Positions 3,105 to 11,856 of a stretch of DNA of 11,856 nucleotides are shown here, in pieces. The stretch covers positions 1-11,856 of the forward strand of contig JALVAU010000068.1 of the NCBI GenBank assembly GCA_027011025.1, written 5' to 3'. This stretch comes from Campylobacteraceae bacterium (GTDB taxonomy: Bacteria > Campylobacterota > Campylobacteria > Campylobacterales > Sulfurospirillaceae). The stretch's first letter is position 1, and every line of letters starts with the position of its first letter. Below the pieces are notes generated by a model. It had not been told where the DNA came from. It did not search any database and saw only the letters and a list, made by a program, of their open reading frames with translations. A program made the position numbers and the translations under genes.

Positions 3105-5198
3105 ATGAAGGCTGATAGTCTATATATATCATCATTAGAGCCGGCTGCAGGCAGTTTGATAATAACAATGGGAATTATGGAGCTATTGAAAGGAAAACTA
3201 GGAAGGGTTGCTTTTTTTAGACCTGTTATAGATGTATCTAGTGAAAAAGACCACGATATCTCTTTTGTACTAGAAAAATATGCACTTGATATGAGCTATG
3301 AAGATACTTATGGTTTTACCACGCATGAAGTAGAAAACTTTATGGCAGAAAACAAATTTAATTATTTTATCGAATCTCTGTTAGAAAAATTTAAAAAATT
3401 AGAAAATAGCTATGACTTTGTGGTTGTTGAAGGTTTGCATAACTCCTCTTTTTCCAACACTGTTGATTTTGATATTAATCTTGCTATTGCACAAAATTTA
3501 GGAGCTCCCTATATCAGTGTATTGAAAGGAAAAAATAAGAGTGCTACAGAAATATTTGATGAAATTTCAATCGAGAAAGATTCGATAAAAAATGCCGGGT
3601 GTGTTCATATAGCTACATTTGTAAATAGAATTGATCCAAAAGTTACAAATGAGCTCAGAGGCAATCTATTATCTCTTGACACTAAAGATTCTCCAGTATA
3701 TCTACTAGAGGAGGTAACTGAGTTAGATACTCCTACTGTTGCTGAAATCAAAAAAAATCTTGGGTGTATTCAGATACTTGGTGAAGAAAAAGACTTAAGA
3801 AGAGTTGTAAAACAGAGTAAAATTGCCGCGATGAAACTAGAGAATTTTTTAGAATATCTAGAAGATGGCGACTTGATTATTGTTCCGGGAGATAGATCAG
3901 ACATTATCATAGGCTCACTCAGTTCAGTTTTCTCTAAAAATTATCCAACAATTTCTGGTATACTTTTAACAGGAGGTATATTGCCTCATAAATCTATCAA
4001 AAAATTGTTCAGCGGATTTGATAGATGTACTATGCCAATACTTAGTGTTGAAGAAGACACATATACCACTGCTATGAAAGTCAAGGATGTACCAGCTACT
4101 ATCACTCCACAAAGTGATAGAAAAATTGCTCTTGCCATGGGTCTTTTTTCATCTAATGTAGATACAAATTATCTCGGAAATAAAATAGTATCAGAAATTA
4201 CAAGTGATACCATAACTCCTATTATGTTTGAATTTGGTCTTTTTGAGAGGGCAAGAAGTGATAAAAAAAGAATCGTTTTACCAGAGAGTGGAGATGAGAG
4301 GATACTAAGAGCTACAGAGATACTTCTTAGAAGAGATGTTGCTCAAATCATACTTCTTGGAGATAAAAAAGAGACTTTAGAAAAGAGTAAAACTTTAGGT
4401 ATAGATATATCAAAAGCTACATTTATAGATCCTAAAACATCTCCATTGATGGATAAATATGTAAATATTTTCTATGAATTAAGAAAGAAAAAAGGCTTGA
4501 GCCTTGAAGTTGCAAAACAATCACTCGAGCTAGACAGTTATTTTGCAACTATGATGGTTCATTGCGGTGATGCAGACGGTATGGTTTCAGGCGCAGTTCA
4601 TACTACACAAGACACCATAAGACCGGCACTTCAAATCATAAAAACAAAACCTGATATATCTATCGTTTCTAGTGTATTTTTTATGTGTCTTGAAACTAAA
4701 GTCTTAGTATATGGGGATTGTGCAGTAAATCAAGATCCAAATGCCGAGCAACTTGCTCAAATTGCTATGACTTCGTCACAAACTGCGAAAATGTTTGGAA
4801 TTGAGCCAAGAGTTGCTATGCTTTCATACTCAACCGGAGATTCTGGCAAAGGTGATGAAGTTGAAAAGGTCAGAGATGCTGCAAATATAGTAAAAGAGAA
4901 GATGCCTGACTTATTGGTTGAAGGACCTATTCAATATGATGCTGCTATAGATAAAAAAGTGGCAAAAACAAAACTTCCAAATAGTAGAGTTGCAGGAAGA
5001 GCTACCGTATTTATCTTCCCTGATTTAAACACAGGAAACAATACATACAAAGCAGTCCAAAGAAGTTCAGGCGCTATAGCTATAGGACCTGTTTTACAAG
5101 GTTTAAACAAACCGGTAAATGATCTAAGCAGGGGTTGCTTAGTAGCTGATATCGTCAATACGGTTGCGATTACCGCCATACAAGCACAAGGAGTCTAA
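3105..5198 (+). CDS. pta: Phosphate acetyltransferase, long (three-domain) form
   Basis: Cytoplasmic enzyme interconverting acetyl-CoA + phosphate and acetyl-phosphate + CoA. The 697 residues match the long Pta class. The N-terminal BioD-like P-loop-fold domain (about 1-215) has a degenerate nucleotide loop (EPAAGSLIIT, no Walker lysine), as also in E. coli Pta. A DRTGG domain follows (about 220-345; GDRSDIIIGS at 262-271, GILLTGG at 285-291). The catalytic PTA domain runs from about 380 to 697, with RIVLPESGDERILRA, CGDADGMVSGAVHTT, YGDCAVNQDPNAEQLA, SYSTGDSGKG, GPIQYDAA, and FPDLNTGNNTYKAVQR near the end. The start is supported by a strong Shine-Dalgarno, AGGGGGAG at 3095-3102. The stop is 3 bases before ackA, so the two form an operon. 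In autotrophic Campylobacterota the pair can run either way, assimilating acetate or gaining ATP from acetyl-CoA; which way cannot be told here. Confidence 0.97.
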   Translation: MKADSLYISSLEPAAGSLIITMGIMELLKGKLGRVAFFRPVIDVSSEKDHDISFVLEKYALDMSYEDTYGFTTHEVENFMAENKFNYFIESLLEKFKKLENSYDFVVVEGLHNSSFSNTVDFDINLAIAQNLGAPYISVLKGKNKSATEIFDEISIEKDSIKNAGCVHIATFVNRIDPKVTNELRGNLLSLDTKDSPVYLLEEVTELDTPTVAEIKKNLGCIQILGEEKDLRRVVKQSKIAAMKLENFLEYLEDGDLIIVPGDRSDIIIGSLSSVFSKNYPTISGILLTGGILPHKSIKKLFSGFDRCTMPILSVEEDTYTTAMKVKDVPATITPQSDRKIALAMGLFSSNVDTNYLGNKIVSEITSDTITPIMFEFGLFERARSDKKRIVLPESGDERILRATEILLRRDVAQIILLGDKKETLEKSKTLGIDISKATFIDPKTSPLMDKYVNIFYELRKKKGLSLEVAKQSLELDSYFATMMVHCGDADGMVSGAVHTTQDTIRPALQIIKTKPDISIVSSVFFMCLETKVLVYGDCAVNQDPNAEQLAQIAMTSSQTAKMFGIEPRVAMLSYSTGDSGKGDEVEKVRDAANIVKEKMPDLLVEGPIQYDAAIDKKVAKTKLPNSRVAGRATVFIFPDLNTGNNTYKAVQRSSGAIAIGPVLQGLNKPVNDLSRGCLVADIVNTVAITAIQAQGV

Positions 5199-5201
5199 GC
5201 C

Positions 5202-6383
5202 ATGAAAATCTTAGTGCTAAACAGCGGAAGCTCTTCTATAAAATTTCAACTCTTCAATGCCAAAACAAATGAATCACTAGTAGCCGGCATTATAGAGCAA
5301 ATAGGAGAAAAACTCTCCCATGCAAAGATAAAGTATGGGGACAAGGAGTTAGAGAGAAATATAGCTATTCCAAACCATAAAGAGGGTTTGGAGATTATGA
5401 ATTCACTTTTAATAGAGTCAAAAATCATAAAAGATTTGTGTGAAGTTGATGGCATAGGGCATAGAGTTGTACATGGCGGGGAAGAGTTTTCAAAACCCGT
5501 AATTATAAATGAAAATGTGATAAAACAGATAGAGAAACTTATACCACTAGCACCCCTTCACAATCCTGCAAATTTGGAGGGAATAAAGAGTTCTATCGAG
5601 CACTGTCCAAATGTTCCCCAAGTAGCTGTATTTGATACAGCTTTTCACTCAAGCATACCACCTCATGCCTATATGTATGCACTCCCTTATGAAACTTATG
5701 AAAAAGATGGGGTGCGAAGATATGGATTTCATGGAACATCTCACCATTTTATAGCAAAAGAGGCAGCTAAATACTTAAATATAGATGAAGATAAACTAAA
5801 TGCCATAACCCTGCATTTGGGAAATGGTGCTAGTATGAGTGCTGTAAAAAATGGAAGAAGCATAGATACATCCATGGGCTTAACTCCGCTTGAGGGATTA
5901 ATCATGGGAACAAGATGTGGCGATATAGATCCTGCTATCATATTTTACCTAGCAAGAGTTGAGGGATTAAGTATAGATGAACTTGATAGTATGCTAAACA
6001 AAAAGAGCGGGCTTAAAGGAATCTGCGGTAATAATGATATGCGAGAAGTCGGTGAAATGGCAAAAAACGGCGACGAAAAGGCTAAGCTTGCATTGGAAAT
6101 GTTTAGCTATAGAATCAAAAAATATATTGGCTCCTACTCCGCAGTTTTGGGTAGGGTTGATTGTCTGATTTTTACAGGCGGTATCGGTGAAAATGATATA
6201 GATGTAAGAAAAAACAGTTGTTCTGGCTTAGAAAACTTGGGTATATCTCTTGATCTAGAAGCAAATAACCAAAGAGCAAAAGAGATATTGGAGATAAACA
6301 AAAAAGAGAGCAGGGTAAAAGTTTTAGTAATTCCGACAAACGAAGAGTTAGAAATTGCTTTGCAGGTTAAATCTATGATATAA
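5202..6383 (+). CDS. ackA: Acetate kinase
   Basis: Interconverts acetyl-phosphate + ADP and acetate + ATP in the cytoplasm, completing the pathway started by Pta. It has 393 residues, the normal length for the ASKHA-fold acetate kinases. The first phosphate-binding segment VLNSGSSSIKFQ carries Asn7. Arg88 lies in GIGHRVVHGGE, the catalytic Asp145 in VFDTAFHSSIP, and His177 in YGFHGTSHHF. LHLGNGAS follows at about 205-211, then Arg238 in MGTRCGDIDP, FTGGIGEND in the nucleotide-binding region, and NEELEIA at the C terminus with the Mg2+-site Glu. All key residues are present. The Shine-Dalgarno AAGGAG (5188-5193) is inside the end of pta, 8 bases before the ATG, which suggests translation closely following pta. 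The gene ends convergently with the minus-strand Mrp-E-like gene, with a palindrome between them. Confidence 0.98.
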   Translation: MKILVLNSGSSSIKFQLFNAKTNESLVAGIIEQIGEKLSHAKIKYGDKELERNIAIPNHKEGLEIMNSLLIESKIIKDLCEVDGIGHRVVHGGEEFSKPVIINENVIKQIEKLIPLAPLHNPANLEGIKSSIEHCPNVPQVAVFDTAFHSSIPPHAYMYALPYETYEKDGVRRYGFHGTSHHFIAKEAAKYLNIDEDKLNAITLHLGNGASMSAVKNGRSIDTSMGLTPLEGLIMGTRCGDIDPAIIFYLARVEGLSIDELDSMLNKKSGLKGICGNNDMREVGEMAKNGDEKAKLALEMFSYRIKKYIGSYSAVLGRVDCLIFTGGIGENDIDVRKNSCSGLENLGISLDLEANNQRAKEILEINKKESRVKVLVIPTNEELEIALQVKSMI

Positions 6384-6406
6384 AATTAGGCAAGATTTTT
6401 AGCTCC

Positions 6407-6465
6407 TACGCGATACAAACAAGCTTTGCTCATTTGTATCGCGTAAGATCGGTTATAAATTTTTT
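6407..6465 (+). terminator. Palindrome between convergent operons, probable transcription terminator / repeat-family member
   Basis: TACGCGATACAAA (6407-6419) and TTTGTATCGCGTA (6433-6445) are perfect 13-bp inverted arms around a 13-base loop. On the plus strand a T6 run follows at 6460-6465, 14 bases beyond the stem, so it is an imperfect intrinsic terminator for ackA. On the minus strand no T-run follows directly. The right flank GCGTAAGATCGGTTA (6441-6455) resembles 3068-3082 and reaches into the stop codon (6453-6455) of the minus-strand gene. Ending two converging operons is the likely role; membership in a repeat family is inferred from the shared 15-mer. Confidence 0.6.
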
Positions 6466-6923
6466 AGTGTTCTCTCAAAATCTCCGGCTATCTCTTCACC
6501 CGCTTCTTTTACATCTGAAGTTACCACATCGATCCAGTGTATGAAAAGAGTATCATCTCGCACATCCATAGTTATGGTTCCGGGAGTCAAAGTTATACTG
6601 TTTGCCAACATCAGTTTTTTGTAGTCCTCTTTTAAATTGGTTTTTATAGCTACAATTCCAGGATTTATAGGAAGTTTTGGGTCTATCACTCTTTTGGCTA
6701 CATCCCAATTTGCTAAAACCAAGGCTTTTAAAAATGTGTATAGATATATGATATATGCAAGAGGTCTGAATCTAAAACTATCACTACTAGGATAGTTTTT
6801 TACATACAACATAGCTATGATAAAAGATACGATAAAACCGGTTGTGAGTTCTTGAATATCAAAACTCATAGTAAGACCAACCCAGATTATAAATAAAAAA
6901 ATAGTCCAAAATAAAAATCTCAT
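6453..6923 (-). CDS. Mrp-type cation/proton antiporter subunit E (MnhE/MrpE-like)
   Basis: A 156-residue membrane protein of the MrpE/MnhE family, last gene of the minus-strand operon. Two or three hydrophobic segments fill the N-terminal half (about 3-20, 25-42, 55-72). A soluble C-terminal part carries the family signature ANSITLTPGTITMDV and then LFIHWIDV. In Mrp antiporters and in archaeal Mbh complexes, MrpE-like subunits belong to the small-subunit sodium/proton module in the cytoplasmic membrane. Its ATG overlaps the stop of the ferredoxin-like gene by four bases (ATGA), so they are translationally coupled. The usual partners MrpF, MrpG and MrpB are not in the window and, if present, should lie upstream of the operon part seen here. 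Its presence points to an Mrp-like ion module in this complex. Confidence 0.88.
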   Translation of the reverse strand: MRFLFWTIFLFIIWVGLTMSFDIQELTTGFIVSFIIAMLYVKNYPSSDSFRFRPLAYIIYLYTFLKALVLANWDVAKRVIDPKLPINPGIVAIKTNLKEDYKKLMLANSITLTPGTITMDVRDDTLFIHWIDVVTSDVKEAGEEIAGDFERTLKNL

Positions 6924-7330
6924 GACGCTTCCTCCCCTATGTTTTTATGATTTTTGGGCATATAGAGAAAGTTATCGGGATCACAATCTGCATGTGTACA
7001 AATATTGTCAAGTTTAAGTGAGCCAGGAGGGCACACATCAGTACAAAGTGAACACCAGCAACATCTTCCATAGTCGATTCTAGGAATACATCCACTTGTG
7101 TTTTTTACATTGTACTCTTTGTCTGGATGAATCATATCTATGGCATCATTCATGCAAATCTCTTCACAACTTGCACATCCTACGCAAGTTTCCAGATTAT
7201 TTATATGAAAACCTCTATATCCAATGGGAATATCTTTTTTAACTTCAGGATATGTGAGTGTTCTAGGATGCTCAAAAAGAGTTCCTATCGCACTTAGCGG
7301 TGATAAAACACCTTTTACATCTATAGCCAT
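6920..7330 (-). CDS. NuoI-like 2x[4Fe-4S] ferredoxin subunit of a complex I / energy-converting-hydrogenase-type complex
   Basis: A 136-residue peripheral electron-transfer subunit. It has two CxxCxxCxxxC clusters: Cys49-52-55-59 (CVGCASCEEIC) and Cys90-93-96-100 (CCWCSLCTDVCPP), matching the N6a/N6b pair of NuoI/HyfH. Residues 25-45 (PEVKKDIPIGYRGFH) correspond to the amphipathic lead-in that docks NuoI-type proteins on the membrane. Four further cysteines (81, 91, 111, 116) lie around and after the second cluster, including CTHADC at 111-116, which is unusual for NuoI. In this type of complex it would take electrons from or give them to soluble ferredoxin, since no NADH module is visible. 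Start ATG at 7330 lies after a purine-rich AAGGGG site, ten bases beyond the NuoD-like stop. Confidence 0.9.
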   Translation of the reverse strand: MAIDVKGVLSPLSAIGTLFEHPRTLTYPEVKKDIPIGYRGFHINNLETCVGCASCEEICMNDAIDMIHPDKEYNVKNTSGCIPRIDYGRCCWCSLCTDVCPPGSLKLDNICTHADCDPDNFLYMPKNHKNIGEEAS

Positions 7331-7340
7331 AATTTTCCCC

Positions 7341-8456
7341 TTATCTTTCTATTTCCGGTGGGCAAATACCCAACGAATTCATCGTCATCGCAACATCTGC
7401 TAATTCAGAATCTACCAACAGTTTTTCAAGAAGTGTATATGCATGCACCAAAGAAGGTCCTCTTACTTGCATTCTTCTTATCTTTTCACTTCCATCACCT
7501 GCCATATAGTAACTCATAGCACCTCTTGCGCTTTCTGTTTGTACATATGTATCATCTGCAGGAAGTTTAAACTTTCTATGCTTTGGAATCTTTTGTAATA
7601 TATCACCCTCTTTAGGCATCTGTTTTATGATTTGTCTCAAAATTCTTATGGATTGAAGCATCTCGTCTCTTCTGACGATCGCTCTTGCATAAACATCTCC
7701 ATCTTGCTGTATCGGTATGTCAAAATCCAACTTATCATACATCAAGTATGGCATATCTTTCCTGACATCCTTTTGGATTCCGCAGGCTCTCATGGTTTGT
7801 CCTACATAGCCATTTTTTAAGACTTCATCCCTGTTTACTACACCTACTCCAATAGCTCTTTTTTTGAAGATGACATTATCAAAAAAAGTATTGTTATAGA
7901 CTATAATTCTTTTTTCATAATAATCCAACAAATCAGACAGCTTGTCTAAAAATCCCTCAGGCAAATCTCTTCTTACACCGCCTGGAAAAGCGTACATGTG
8001 ATAGACTCTACCGCCTGTTAACTCTTCAAAAAGATCAAGCATATAGTCTCTATCGCATACTGACCACTGAGGTATAAGTCCTAGACCGATAGATCCTGCT
8101 TGTCCACCCATCCACAAGAACATAGTCGCTAGTCTTTGCATCTCTAAGACCATTGTTCTTATATATTTTGCTTTTTCACTGATTTCAAGTCCTGCAAGAT
8201 TTTCAACTGCTCTTGCAAAATTTTCTTCATTTGGATCAGGTTCTGGCACACAGATTCTGCAGACAATAGTAAAAGCCTGTACAACTGTTCTTCGCTCAAC
8301 AAGTTTTTCAAATCCTCTGTGAAGATATCCCACATGTGTTTGAGCTCTCTTTATAGTTTCACCAAGCAAATCAAGCTCTACACTCATATTTCCTGTGATT
8401 CCCGGATGTTGAGGTCCATGAAATATTTTGATAGTATTTTTTAGATTATTCTTCAT
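7341..8456 (-). CDS. NuoD / [NiFe]-hydrogenase-large-subunit-like catalytic subunit with an incomplete metal site
   Basis: A 371-residue 49-kDa/large-subunit family protein. The N terminus is close to NuoD: HGPQHP at 13-18 and THVGYLHRGFEKLVE at 40-54. Unlike NuoD it has a CxxC, Cys66-Arg-Ile-Cys69, where group 4 hydrogenases carry their first NiFe-binding pair, but followed by PEPDPNEEN instead of the hydrogenase pattern. The C terminus reads SLGICPPEIER: Cys365 fits the first Cys of DPCxxC, while the second position is Glu368 as in NuoD. The protein ends at Arg371, with no tail for a maturation protease. The quinone-pocket His of NuoD (in PSTHG) is replaced (PGITG). So three of four NiFe cysteines remain and the quinone signature is absent. 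It overlaps the NuoC-like gene by 11 bases. Most like Ehr or Mbx-type large subunits; its substrate is unknown. Confidence 0.88.
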   Translation of the reverse strand: MKNNLKNTIKIFHGPQHPGITGNMSVELDLLGETIKRAQTHVGYLHRGFEKLVERRTVVQAFTIVCRICVPEPDPNEENFARAVENLAGLEISEKAKYIRTMVLEMQRLATMFLWMGGQAGSIGLGLIPQWSVCDRDYMLDLFEELTGGRVYHMYAFPGGVRRDLPEGFLDKLSDLLDYYEKRIIVYNNTFFDNVIFKKRAIGVGVVNRDEVLKNGYVGQTMRACGIQKDVRKDMPYLMYDKLDFDIPIQQDGDVYARAIVRRDEMLQSIRILRQIIKQMPKEGDILQKIPKHRKFKLPADDTYVQTESARGAMSYYMAGDGSEKIRRMQVRGPSLVHAYTLLEKLLVDSELADVAMTMNSLGICPPEIER

Positions 8457-9054
8457 TTTTCACCTCATCACTTGGATTGTTTTTTGCCTCAAGTGCCGCT
8501 TTTGCTTCGGCTTCTTGCTGTGCTTTTAGTTTCGCAGCTTTTTTTGCTTCTCTCTTCTTTTTCATCTCTTCTTTTGCATCAAGTGCATCACCTCTTTGTT
8601 CCCGGAAAGGGTTCATACTATTTACATACTCCAAAGTATCAAAATCTCTTCTTAAAGGAGGCATATTATCCCAATACTCCAAAGCAAAATCTATAAGTGT
8701 CGGATGTCCTGGAAAATCAACGCCAAACATTTCATGCATCTCTCTTTCCATTATCTCAGCCTGAGGCCAAATCGTATGCATAGTAGGTAAACTTGCATTT
8801 TCTCTTTGTATCTTTGTTTGAACCATAACCACATGATCTCTATCTTTGGTTTGCAAACAGTATGTGATAGTAAAAAATCCATCCTCCAAGTCATCTCTGC
8901 AATTTATGGAATCAAGTGTGATATATCCAAACTCATTTAAAAAACTAAGTAAAAGTGATTCCAATCTTTCAAAACCTACAGTAACACTATAGAGGTAATC
9001 TTGTTTTTGCACGAGTTGTAGTGATAATTTTTCTAACTTTGATGCTAAATCCAT
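8446..9054 (-). CDS. NuoC-like (30-kDa) subunit with a charged Ala/Lys/Glu C-terminal tail
   Basis: A 202-residue structural subunit of the hydrophilic arm that packs on the NuoD-like and NuoI-like subunits. The 30-kDa-subunit signature is clear at 101-138: IMEREMHEMFGVDFPGHPT, then PPLRRDFD. Residues 1-100 form the alpha/beta domain. From about 157 to 202 the sequence becomes an Ala/Lys/Glu-rich helix or disordered tail (KEEMKKKREAKKAAK, then EAEAKAALEAKNN), well beyond the usual end of the family after PLRKDF. The ATG at 9054 shares one base with the NuoB-like stop (TAATG) and has GGAGGT 8-9 bases before it. It is separate from the NuoD-like gene, not fused as in E. coli NuoCD or HycE, although the two overlap by 11 bases. 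Confidence 0.9.
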   Translation of the reverse strand: MDLASKLEKLSLQLVQKQDYLYSVTVGFERLESLLLSFLNEFGYITLDSINCRDDLEDGFFTITYCLQTKDRDHVVMVQTKIQRENASLPTMHTIWPQAEIMEREMHEMFGVDFPGHPTLIDFALEYWDNMPPLRRDFDTLEYVNSMNPFREQRGDALDAKEEMKKKREAKKAAKLKAQQEAEAKAALEAKNNPSDEVKNEE

Positions 9055-9689
9055 TATGCTTTACCTCCACTTTTGAGATTGTACCAGTCTGTTTCATAAG
9101 ATGGGTCTATATGACCTCCAAGCACTCTCTTCTGATTTTCTTTGTAGAATTCAAAATTTTCATCATATTTTTCCCAGCCTGCTTTTTCTCCATTTCTAAT
9201 TCTCTCTTGAAGAAGCACAAAACCGTCTATCACAGCTTCAGGTCTTGGCATACAGCCTGTAACCGATACATCTATCGGGAGATAATCATCTAGCTTTTTT
9301 ATGGTATTATAAGAGTCCCAATACATACCACCGTTTATCGGACAACTGCCAAGAGTCATTATGTATCTTGGTTTTTGCATCTGTTCATATGTTCTTATTA
9401 CTCTTCTAAGAGTCTTGTATGCTAAATAACCGGATAAGATGATCAAATCAGCCTGTCTAGGGGTTGCTACACCTACAACTCCCATCCTCTCAGCATCATA
9501 TCTGCTTGTGAAGGTTGGGGGCATCTCAATAGCACCACATCCTGTTCCATAAGCTACGACAAAGATACTCCTGCTTCTAAACCATCGAACGGCTTTTTCC
9601 ATTATATCGTGAGTATTTGCCAAGCCACTCTCTTCAAATTTACATTTTAAGCTGCCATCCGTGCTACTGCCGTAAAAACCACTTTCCAT
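9054..9689 (-). CDS. NuoB / small-subunit-like [4Fe-4S] protein lacking one cluster cysteine
   Basis: A 211-residue subunit that normally holds the terminal [4Fe-4S] (N2) cluster passing electrons to the NuoD-like active site. Family signatures are strong: TPRQADLIILSG near 76-87, RTYEQMQKPRYIMTLGSCPINGG with Cys116, and DVSVTGCMPRPEAV with Cys146. Where NuoB has two adjacent cysteines (CC.xE), this protein reads YGTGCGAIEM with Cys51-Gly52 (TGT GGT at 9539-9534), so one ligand is missing. The only other cysteine is Cys16. The C terminus, after about residue 165, is a longer polar tail than in NuoB. Start: the frame opens at a TTG (9725) inside the NuoH-like gene. The ATG at 9689 is preferred because AGGGAG (9700-9695) lies five bases before it; ATG at 9692 is possible too. 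Confidence 0.9.
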   Translation of the reverse strand: MESGFYGSSTDGSLKCKFEESGLANTHDIMEKAVRWFRSRSIFVVAYGTGCGAIEMPPTFTSRYDAERMGVVGVATPRQADLIILSGYLAYKTLRRVIRTYEQMQKPRYIMTLGSCPINGGMYWDSYNTIKKLDDYLPIDVSVTGCMPRPEAVIDGFVLLQERIRNGEKAGWEKYDENFEFYKENQKRVLGGHIDPSYETDWYNLKSGGKA

Positions 9690-9699
9690 CATTTCTCCC

Positions 9700-10593
9700 T
9701 TATCCAAACCAAACGATTCTAGCAAGTCCCAAGACAGCTATCAGCGTAGGCAATTTCATCAAAAAATCAACTGCTTGTTCAACTTTGTATCTTCCATATA
9801 CGATACCTATGAAGATAATAGCAACAAAAATAGTAAAAGTTTTAAGAACCAACATAACTAATGAATCAGCACCACCCAAAAACAGATCAACTATCAAAAC
9901 AAGTTTTGCAAATGCAAAGAGCGAACCCTGACTCATAAGAAGTGCTAAAAATTTTCCGCTAAACTCTGTTCTAGGACCGGAATAGACCTCCTGAGGGGCT
10001 CCTGGAATATCAAATGGTGATGCACCAAAAAAACCAACCATAGATATCATAGCACCTATAAAAAGAAGAGGGTGATTGATGATATTTAAACCAGCTGTTT
10101 TTTGAAGATCTATGATGTGTACTATATCGCTACTGTTCGCAGCTATGATTAAACCAACAACAGCTATGTAAAATGGCAATTCTAAGCCGATGAGTCTAGT
10201 CAGACCTCTGACTACTCCCATAACACCAAAAGGATTTCCACCTGTTCCAACTGCCAATGCATTTCCAAGAGGTCCAAGTACCATCAGATAAAGCAACACA
10301 AACAGATTTCCTTGGCTAGTTACACTTCTTAAAAAATCACTATCACTAAAAACAGGAACCAAAACAAGCGTCAAAACAGCGCCCGTAGCCATAATCACAG
10401 GTCCTAAATAGAACATCCAGCCATAAGAGACCGTATTGTTTTTTGAAAATAGTTTGATACTGTCATAAAATGATTGATACACGGTTGGACCATATCTGCC
10501 TTGAATTCTAGCTGTTATATTTCTATATAAACCAAAATAGATAAATCCAACTACATATGCCAACATGATAAGTAAAATAATTTGAAAAATCAT
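9700..10593 (-). CDS. NuoH / HyfC-HycD-like membrane subunit linking the redox and ion-pumping arms
   Basis: A 297-residue polytopic inner-membrane protein with about eight predicted helices. Residues 28-53 (ARIQGRYGPTVYQSFYDSIKLFSK) match the conserved cytoplasmic loop of NuoH/HycD, which has GPxxxQxxxDxxKL. Residues 192-213 (SPFDIPGAPQEVYSGPRTEFSG) match the second loop, with Glu202 and Glu210 present; the first acidic residue of that loop in many NuoH proteins is Gly198 here. The PRTEFSG form is closer to energy-converting hydrogenases than to respiratory complex I. In these complexes it anchors the NuoB/NuoD-like subunits and starts the charged path across the membrane. Its ATG overlaps the antiporter stop (TGATG), with GGAGTTAAC upstream as ribosome site, and its end is followed at once by the NuoB-like gene's ribosome site. 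Confidence 0.93.
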   Translation of the reverse strand: MIFQIILLIMLAYVVGFIYFGLYRNITARIQGRYGPTVYQSFYDSIKLFSKNNTVSYGWMFYLGPVIMATGAVLTLVLVPVFSDSDFLRSVTSQGNLFVLLYLMVLGPLGNALAVGTGGNPFGVMGVVRGLTRLIGLELPFYIAVVGLIIAANSSDIVHIIDLQKTAGLNIINHPLLFIGAMISMVGFFGASPFDIPGAPQEVYSGPRTEFSGKFLALLMSQGSLFAFAKLVLIVDLFLGGADSLVMLVLKTFTIFVAIIFIGIVYGRYKVEQAVDFLMKLPTLIAVLGLARIVWFG

Positions 10594-11856
10594 CAGTTAA
10601 CTCCTATGAAAAACAGTGCACTGAAAAAGAGCAGGATTATAATCATCGTATTATGTATATTTCCATAATACATCCTACTGAAAAGTTCAGATGTTTTTTT
10701 GGTTTGTATTGCCAGCGATTCGTAAAAAGAGGATGAACTTCTTTTGAGTATGGCATTTACAAATTTGATTCTATAAAGATCAGTCCCAAATCCAAAACCA
10801 AAGTGCAAGGATGTATCTTGTGTTGGAACTTCCCCGCAATAGCTTATATCAAATCTATTTAGATTGTTTTTGGCTTTTGATTTGATTCTTGTGATGAGTA
10901 GAAGTATCAATACAAAAAACACAACAAAAGCGCTCATGATGAAAAATCCATTGAAACTGCCAACTGCACTATTCATCACGCCTAATCCGCTGTAAGGTAT
11001 GGTTGAGAGTGAAAATTCCACCAATATAGGATTTATTATCTTTATAAATGCCCCCGGGAATGTTCCTGTTAATACAAGCAAAAGTGCAAGTATAATTTGA
11101 GGAATCAGATAACTGATCGGTACCTCTTTGGTTGTTTCTAAATTTTTTGAAGTCGGATGTCCTAAATATATACCATATACAAGTTTGTAACAGTATAAAA
11201 ATGAAGCTGCACCAGAGAAGAGCATACCTATAAGAATCAGTGCAAATTTTGTGTCAATCGCAGCATTGTACATCATAAATTTTGAAGCAAAACCACCAAG
11301 AGGAGGCATACCCGCAAGTCCGATGATGCCTATTAGAAGCATCACAAATGAGACAGGAGTCCTATATATCAGACCACCTAATTGGCTAAATTTATTTTTA
11401 CCGGTTTGAGCCACAATCGCTGCTACATTTATAAATAGAAGCAATTTGATGATAGTGTGTATAAGTGTATGATACATAGCCCCCGCAACACCATAAGCAG
11501 TTCCAAAACCTATGACGGCTATTATGTAGCCTAGTTGTGCGATTGAAGAGTATGCCAATAGTCTTTTTACTTCATCTTGAGTTATAGCTTTAAATGTAGC
11601 TATTATTGAAGTAGCAACACCAATCCAAGCTAAAACATAACCAAAATCAGTACCGTTTAATATTGTGCCAAACATCATCTTTAACTCTTGATATCCTATT
11701 ATGTTTCCATATACCAAAAAGAGCCCGTATATACCCATTTTTGACATGACGGCTGAGAGGATAGAGCTAAAAAGATCAGGTGCTTTTGAGTAGGTATCTA
11801 CTACCCAATAGTGCAAACCAATCACACCGGCTTTTGTAAAAAAACTGAGTGAAAAG
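10593..11856 (-). CDS. NuoL/M/N-MrpD-type ion-translocating membrane subunit (5' end outside window)
   Basis: Polytopic antiporter-like subunit, the proton or sodium pump of complex I and Mrp-type complexes. The frame stays open from the TGA at 10593-10595 to the window edge, giving 420 residues; a GTG at 11825 is inside the protein, not its start. The first residues FFTKAGVIGLHYW carry the conserved helix-7 Lys, followed by DTYSKAPDLFSSILSAVMSKMGIYG with the helix-8 Lys. Further on are QDEVKRLLAYSSIAQLGY, a TLIHTIIKLLLF segment with the His/Lys of helices 11-12, and GMPPLGGFASKF, all hallmarks of a working channel. A non-membrane C-terminal stretch (ISYCGEVPTQDTS, then FGFGFGTDLYR) and one last helix follow, a type of extension seen in hydrogenase-4-like and Mbh/Ehr antiporter subunits. 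N-terminal helices are missing. It is the first visible gene of the operon. Confidence 0.92.
   Translation of the reverse strand, partial: FSLSFFTKAGVIGLHYWVVDTYSKAPDLFSSILSAVMSKMGIYGLFLVYGNIIGYQELKMMFGTILNGTDFGYVLAWIGVATSIIATFKAITQDEVKRLLAYSSIAQLGYIIAVIGFGTAYGVAGAMYHTLIHTIIKLLLFINVAAIVAQTGKNKFSQLGGLIYRTPVSFVMLLIGIIGLAGMPPLGGFASKFMMYNAAIDTKFALILIGMLFSGAASFLYCYKLVYGIYLGHPTSKNLETTKEVPISYLIPQIILALLLVLTGTFPGAFIKIINPILVEFSLSTIPYSGLGVMNSAVGSFNGFFIMSAFVVFFVLILLLITRIKSKAKNNLNRFDISYCGEVPTQDTSLHFGFGFGTDLYRIKFVNAILKRSSSSFYESLAIQTKKTSELFSRMYYGNIHNTMIIILLFFSALFFIGVN

Follow-up and report, generated by a model that had tools for sequence, protein, structure and literature searches.

Gene content of the locus

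The stretch of DNA analysed here (the window, 11,856 nucleotides) is the entire contig JALVAU010000068.1 (C68) of a Campylobacteraceae bacterium whose assembly (GCA_027011025.1) comprises 1.97 Mb in 494 contigs. Positions 6453-11855 of its minus strand hold seven tightly packed consecutive open reading frames (ORFs), which overlap by 1 to 26 bases apart from one 10-base gap and are named below after subunits of the membrane-bound sulfane sulfur reductase (MBS) of Pyrococcus furiosus. The ORFs and their Pfam matches, in the order Proton_antipo_M, NADHdh, Oxidored_q6, Complex1_30kDa, Complex1_49kDa, 4Fe-4S and MNHE, agree with the overlapping antiporter-NuoH-NuoB-NuoC-NuoD-NuoI-MrpE series of the original prediction, which had been made from the sequence alone, and the cluster lacks NuoE/F/G genes, i.e., the NADH module, as had been claimed. 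A single model, Fer4, exceeded its cut-off in the 4Fe-4S (NuoI-like) protein (21.7 vs 21.1 bits). Because the window is a complete contig, the gene ending at 11855 was truncated by assembly and not by biology.

10593..11855, minus strand: MbsH' (MrpA/NuoL-type antiporter with a C-terminal extension), PF00361, 5' end open at the contig end
9700..10593, minus strand: MbsM (NuoH-like membrane anchor), PF00146
9054..9725, minus strand: MbsJ (NuoB-like, proximal 4Fe-4S cluster), TTG start, predicted ligands C63, C128 and C158
8446..9054, minus strand: MbsK (NuoC-like), PF00329
7341..8456, minus strand: MbsL (NuoD-like), assigned by tree, residues and best PDB match 6u8y_L
6920..7330, minus strand: MbsN (NuoI-like, 136 aa, two 4Fe-4S motifs), match to 6u8y_N
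6453..6923, minus strand: MbsA (MrpE-like), final gene of the operon, PF01899

The nearest named relative is a locus (L009) from a Campylobacteraceae metagenome-assembled genome (MAG) whose common genes are 96.0-99.7% identical in protein, which bears out the proposed Campylobacterota host. MbsH' is 590 aa long in L009, and full-length copies are present in L004 and L009. Six further genes, of the MrpF, MrpG, MbhD, MrpB/MbhE, MrpC and MrpD types, stand before this antiporter in relatives, where the original prediction had advised looking for them. Eleven loci were examined for gene order, two of them interrupted by contig ends; all nine that span the whole cluster have 13 genes in the order B-C-D-E-G-H-H'-M-J-K-L-N-A, and none of the nine holds a flavoprotein or other extra gene within it. 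The window holds seven of the 13 MBS subunit genes, and all 13 types are present only in relatives. What had been described as a novel hybrid operon is instead the 3' portion of an MBS operon with 13 subunit genes, cut by the contig end.

Relationship of the subunits to MBS

Judged from its sequences, the complex is a bacterial MBS/MBX. All nine subunits compared with the PDB (six window genes and the L004/L009 copies of H', H and E, with B, C, D and G left out) had the P. furiosus MBS structure 6u8y as their best sequence match, ahead of the membrane-bound hydrogenase (MBH), Mrp and complex I. The lead over the next kind can be read from the scores of MbsL (6u8y_L, 308 vs 211 bits), MbsJ (6u8y_J, 219 vs 120), MbsM (6u8y_M, 138 vs 77) and the relatives' copies of MbsH (238 vs 157) and MbsE (161 vs 51); MbsN reached 60 bits with 6u8y_N vs 46, the L004 copy of MbsH' 235 bits with 6u8y_X vs 141 for MBH, and MbsA 136 bits with 6u8y_A vs 84.5 for stand-alone Mrp, while the margin for MbsK was narrow (6u8y_K, 41.7 vs 38.8). 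A tree of 50 NuoD-type sequences, in which three NuoD and HycE served as outgroup and MbhL and Fpo were left out, split 46 MBS-type sequences, including those of P. furiosus and the window, from the other four (ultrafast bootstrap 99; 98 is the value for this 46/4 split on the re-rooted tree). The window and P. furiosus MbsL are about 40% identical. The two complexes have in common all 13 subunit types (seen in the window's relatives) and two antiporter-type pumps. They differ in that mbsA, encoding the MrpE-like subunit, comes last in the window-type operon, whereas it presumably comes first in the mbs operon of P. furiosus.

Some comparisons would also suit a quinone-reducing relative of complex I, i.e., a ferredoxin:quinone oxidoreductase. 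MbsL passes the NCBIfam NuoD equivalog PRK06075 (388 vs 360 bits), and the MbsJ side passes two NuoB subfamily models. The AlphaFold model of MbsL (predicted local distance difference test score 91.7) fits MBS no better than complex I; Foldseek placed 6u8y_L at rank 3, the 50 matches listed by VIA do not include it, and fold comparison was dropped as a discriminator. The grouping of MbsL with MBS speaks against a quinone-reducing complex, as do the residues and the separate nuo operon described next.

Residues of the catalytic site

Residues were compared in 240 MbsL homologues (the best 120 of 3268 window matches and the best 120 of 5020 matches to P. furiosus MbsL; these are not random samples, and no identical sequence is common to both sets) and in the best 120 of 1832 MbsJ homologues, all of them close to the window protein (57-90% identity). 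The window MbsL has Thr at the position of Nqo4 His38 and Ile at that of Tyr87; His occupies the first column in two of the 240 homologues and Tyr the second in none. Two cysteines, C69 and C365 (equivalent to C85 and C385 of P. furiosus MbsL), are kept and invariant (240/240), while the remaining two NiFe-ligand cysteines are absent from the window protein and from every homologue (0/240). MbsJ keeps C63, C128 and C158 (C28, C93 and C123 in P. furiosus), Cys throughout the best 120 of 1832 homologues, and its loop equals that of P. furiosus MbsJ in length and is shorter than that of HycG.

The same features are given in the portions consulted of the P. furiosus MBS study, which reports loss of the quinone residues H38/Y87, retention of only two NiFe cysteines (MbsL C85 and C385), ligation of the proximal cluster by MbsJ C28, C93 and C123, a structure and a polysulfide-reducing activity (PMC7684303). 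The original prediction was right that neither the NiFe site nor the quinone His is intact (two of four cysteines; Thr at His38) and that the complex is of the Mbx/MBS kind, as tree, PDB matches and residues agree. By these residues, the "missing active site" of the NuoD-like subunit is the signature of MBS, so that the undescribed redox partner it had proposed gives way to a system with published polysulfide reduction (PMC7684303, in part).

The host genome carries a separate nuo operon on contig C112 (NuoB in part, C, D, two short genes replacing E/F, NuoG, H, I, J, K, L and M in part, several of these names having been assigned by reading). Its NuoD keeps the quinone His and has Thr at the Tyr87 position, so Tyr87 alone is not decisive in these hosts. 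The canonical NuoD of these Campylobacterota was read in five loci (L032, 8263-9489, and L022-L025), and all five combine the quinone His with Thr at Tyr87 (PTTDRMDY). Complex I (Nuo) and the group 4 NiFe hydrogenases (MBH, Hyc) share fold and modules with the window complex, which differs from them in having no NADH module, no quinone His and no full set of NiFe ligands. A remnant of canonical complex I is ruled out by the tree, in which the NuoD-like protein falls outside the NuoD group, by the residues and by the separate nuo operon, and an active NiFe hydrogenase by the incomplete ligands. Quinone reduction itself, for which a NuoD holding the His already exists in the genome and the His38/Tyr87 equivalents are missing here (although the host NuoD also lacks the Tyr), is the least credible of the functions considered and is given hardly any weight.

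The site also departs from that of P. furiosus. The position of MbsJ C25 is Gly in the window and in all of the best 120 of 1832 homologues. MbsL has an additional cysteine two positions beyond the Tyr87 equivalent, at residue 66, which is Cys in the best 120 of 3268 window-type homologues, in none of 12 Thermococcales-type sequences and in 15 of the 108 others, where Pro is commonest (90/108); Pro was also present in all eight named tubeworm-symbiont sequences checked. C66 occurs in Chromatium okenii, Thioflavicoccus, Thiocystis, Sulfurospirillum sp. 1612 and Sulfurovum PC08-66. That it was an invention of the window's own lineage was rejected, since 15 of 108 other homologues carry it; the smallest clade that takes in every one of the 137 C66 sequences comprises 223, and C66 is not a marker of one clade. 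Residue 225 is Cys in 114 of the best 120 window-type homologues.

By analogy, a pairing of the cysteines in C66-R-I-C69 might resemble ferredoxin:thioredoxin reductase. We raise as a speculation, more probably wrong than right, that the active site was re-plumbed, with MbsJ C25 gone and a C66-R-I-C69 dithiol of MbsL placed by a site-differentiated 4Fe-4S cluster; in that case an organic persulfide or disulfide, not free polysulfide, might be the physiological substrate, and the enzyme might run in reverse in autotrophs that use the reductive tricarboxylic acid (rTCA) cycle and serve as a glycogen-to-sulfur dark reductase in purple sulfur bacteria.

The window has the equivalents of the MbsH' pump residues K217, K248, H336 and K399, all seven full-length relatives aligned have E128, and D196, E203 and E211 of MbsM are conserved. 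Since most pump residues are kept, the membrane arm looks functional.

Distribution and host genomes

At a threshold of E<=1e-60, ten of 397 Campylobacterota genomes gave a match, six of them MBS-type (75-100% identity); the other four are NuoD (37-38% identity, quinone His present). MBS occurs in seven of ten genomes of the window's genus and in 17 of 175 (one at 56% identity) of the family of genome G335, which its Sulfurovum matches suggest to be the Sulfurovaceae. Named homologues come from Sulfurospirillum sp. 1612, Sulfurovum sp. PC08-66, Chromatium okenii, Thiocystis minor and Thioflavicoccus mobilis, and more distant ones from tubeworm symbionts and Thermococcus. Carriage on plasmids was rejected: 88 plasmid records matched, all below 60% identity, and among the 20 matches listed identity was 35.9-36.6%, about the level of NuoD, with six bearing a gene name read as nuoD.

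Bacterial MBX is in print for Thermotoga (PMC9431562) and the Riftia symbiont (PMC11636981), in the parts of both papers drawn on here. The Thermotoga maritima complex is likewise a bacterial 13-subunit MBS homologue with predicted ferredoxin-dependent sulfur reduction, but its host is a heterotrophic hyperthermophile, and the likeness is drawn from its description (PMC9431562, in part). The putative Mrp-Mbx of Endoriftia, the Riftia symbiont, is an MBX in a sulfur-oxidising, rTCA-capable bacterium (PMC11636981, in part). It was likened to the window complex through the sequences of Lamellibrachia and Escarpia symbionts, which have Pro at residue 66 and lie within the MBS clade on another branch than the window. 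Among the papers listed by our searches of the open-licence literature, which were not aimed at the C25/C66 traits, we found no MBS/MBX in Campylobacterota or Chromatiaceae. The complex thus belongs to a known kind, apparently undescribed for Campylobacterota and Chromatiaceae hosts in the literature searched.

The own genome has NiFe hydrogenase genes, POR_N-family genes and ATP-citrate lyase, the last in line with the rTCA background that the original prediction had assumed, and no match to an NQR2/RnfD-type protein. Nitrogenase was rejected as a ferredoxin user, because a strong NifH match was obtained in only one (G335) of nine MBS-holding genomes and the others were weak. Phosphofructokinase (PFK) was found in four of six MBS-holding genomes vs 105 of 397 overall and is lacking in the own genome and in G061; a link with MBS was rejected, as the cases are too few and three of the four positives belong to one family. 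Further membrane-arm genes were noted in G000, where L033 (C64, 2-4171) holds three antiporter genes that are NuoL/M/N-like by reading and L034 (C429, 45-2842) an antiporter and a NuoH-like protein that resemble a group 4 hydrogenase-type membrane arm.

Genome G472 carries a divergent MbsL (56% identical) followed by a 593-aa NuoI-GltD-like fusion (L062, C117, 119-3256), whose best match over nearly its whole length is PRK13984 (643 bits, below the cut-off of 946). Its sequence suggests an NAD(P)H-linked MBX variant. In the window, MbsN might dock or replace a GltD-like flavoprotein, with NAD(P)H and not ferredoxin as the partner, and its best NCBIfam match is the N-terminal part of PRK13984. 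The window MbsN, however, has 136 aa and no flavin domain, and an additional gene is missing from the nine spanning clusters, so that we regard an NAD(P)H-linked complex as very improbable here.

Gene neighbourhood and operon variants

A carbon, ferredoxin or sulfur gene adjoins mbsA directly or one gene away in eight of 21 readable loci: ackA in the window and L009, phosphoglucose isomerase and then PFK in L029 and L030 (the isomerase of L029 being named by its likeness to that of L030), POR in L056, zwf in L061, prpE in L028, and in L057 a flavoprotein that has coenzyme A disulfide reductases as its best PDB matches and scores below the NCBIfam cut-offs among the matches listed. These neighbours lean weakly towards disposal of electrons from carbon oxidation. 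A fixed genetic partner beside the operon was not found, and flanks vary between species. The features beside the cluster in the window are as follows; the pta-ackA arrangement is also present in L009.

3105..6383, plus strand: pta (two-domain phosphate acetyltransferase, PF01515) and ackA (acetate kinase, PF00871), convergent neighbours
6404..6448, strand not assigned: hairpin between the convergent 3' ends of ackA and mbsA, from sequence and folding

The hairpin has a folding energy of -22.1 kcal/mol on one strand and -30.5 kcal/mol on the other and is likely a shared two-way terminator of ackA and mbsA; a terminator scan gave no terminator-like matches and left it unflagged. Elsewhere in the window, a Phd/YefM-type antitoxin-like gene (562-798) is flanked by D-Ala-D-Ala-ligase-like and alpha/beta-hydrolase genes.

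A single operon order everywhere was rejected, as L051 and L060 differ. In L051 (G535:C130, 1109-9024), the respiratory operon is interrupted by defence-like genes, which stand between those for M, J and K; they code for a cytosine methylase with a fused Eco47II-type endonuclease domain, for a NOV_C protein of 1444 aa and for a DUF1016/YhcG nuclease. In L060 (G435:C91, 5745-7336), a gene of the SdiA-regulated family and a nucleotidyltransferase gene, galU-like by reading and adjoining mbsJ, stand directly upstream of mbsJ in the expected place of mbsM; genes like this pair occur near MBS in L031 and L049, by reading only. In L005 (11524-11990), mbsA is split over two frames in the MAG, by sequencing error or as a broken gene.

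Proposed function and direction

The subunit set and order (in relatives), the relationship, the ligand residues and most pump residues were observed here. On this basis, the complex is probably a bacterial MBS/MBX ferredoxin:polysulfide oxidoreductase built on an Mrp antiporter and running mainly forward, its activity, substrate and ion being taken over from P. furiosus. Electrons would enter from reduced ferredoxin at the pair of 4Fe-4S clusters in MbsN and move on to the proximal cluster of MbsJ, held by only three cysteine ligands. The free iron of this cluster would cleave the S-S bond of polysulfide or a related sulfane or disulfide where the former quinone chamber, bounded by MbsL, MbsJ and MbsM, ends. 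The resulting change would be transmitted via MbsM to MbsH' and MbsH, acting as H+ pumps, and would also reach the Mrp-type Na+ module (A, B, C and E), so that energy is kept as an ion gradient. The neighbours and the physiology suggest that, in the main, the complex serves with sulfur as an anoxic sink for ferredoxin from pyruvate/2-oxoacid oxidation. In T. maritima, mbxA was up 4.36-fold with S0 (PMC9431562, from the part available).

Several observations weigh against this reading. To our knowledge, none of the relatives closer than P. furiosus has been characterised biochemically, and the fold model of MbsL is indifferent between complex I and MBS. The MrpD-type antiporter gene, the sole upstream gene sought in the window's own assembly, was not found there; as the near-identical L009 has it, its absence is most simply an assembly gap. 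Foreign genes interrupt or precede the J part of the operon in L051 and L060. At MbsM E104 and E193 the window has Val and Ser, and all eight relatives aligned are non-acidic there, as are E. coli NuoH and HycD; by sequence, the charge axis departs at these two places from that proposed for P. furiosus. Thirteen of the 21 readable loci have no carbon, ferredoxin or sulfur neighbour of mbsA, and the eight that do include two close pairs (window/L009 and L029/L030). Lastly, the ATP-citrate lyase of the host argues for the opposite direction, and so does the observation that the Mrp-Mbx genes of Endoriftia neighbour the co-expression network of the rTCA cycle and not that of the Calvin-Benson-Bassham cycle, in the part of that work consulted (PMC11636981).

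In reverse, the ion gradient would drive the reduction of ferredoxin, with sulfide or polysulfide as the electron source, for the 2-oxoacid synthases of the rTCA cycle. Because ATP-citrate lyase is present, the host probably needs reduced ferredoxin for carbon fixation. Across the nine MBS-holding genomes searched, the ATP-citrate lyase domain was found in eight, the own genome included, and POR_N-family 2-oxoacid oxidoreductases in all nine, while eight gave no match to an NQR2/RnfD-type protein; the last two counts also speak for forward operation. The Endoriftia network neighbours are shared with the rTCA cycle, and the same source counts the Riftia symbiont MBX among complexes for which either function or direction is unknown (PMC11636981, in part). 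Against reverse operation stands the rarity of the complex, held by only six of 397 Campylobacterota genomes sampled. The rTCA cycle is the rule among described Campylobacterota autotrophs (PMC6908604, in the sections used), and since most genomes lack the complex, these autotrophs would make their ferredoxin another way. G472, moreover, holds the divergent variant with no match to ATP-citrate lyase, and the nearest characterised relative runs forward. Reverse operation is a serious but distinctly less likely alternative to forward reduction of polysulfide.

Implications

Where names are shown, the source annotations call these proteins NADH-quinone oxidoreductase (NADH dehydrogenase) subunits, and this naming hides what in Campylobacterota and purple sulfur bacteria is probably an ion pump linked to sulfur. 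MBS chemistry could become easier to study with hosts beyond the hyperthermophiles. For P. furiosus, the portions available report that dimethyl trisulfide reduction depends neither on MbsJ C25 nor on MbsL C85/C385 (PMC7684303). The natural lack of MbsJ C25 fits the published activity of the C25A enzyme (PMC7684303, in part), and the invariance of the two MbsL cysteines (240/240) sits badly with their being functionless. In C. okenii, glycogen is possibly oxidised to polyhydroxybutyrate while stored sulfur is reduced to H2S, according to the part of the study consulted, in which a reductase is not named (PMC6374484). We propose MBX as a candidate for the dark sulfur reductase of purple sulfur bacteria. 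If MBX does act in this way in Chromatium-type bacteria, it would supply a candidate enzyme for a long-known physiological observation.

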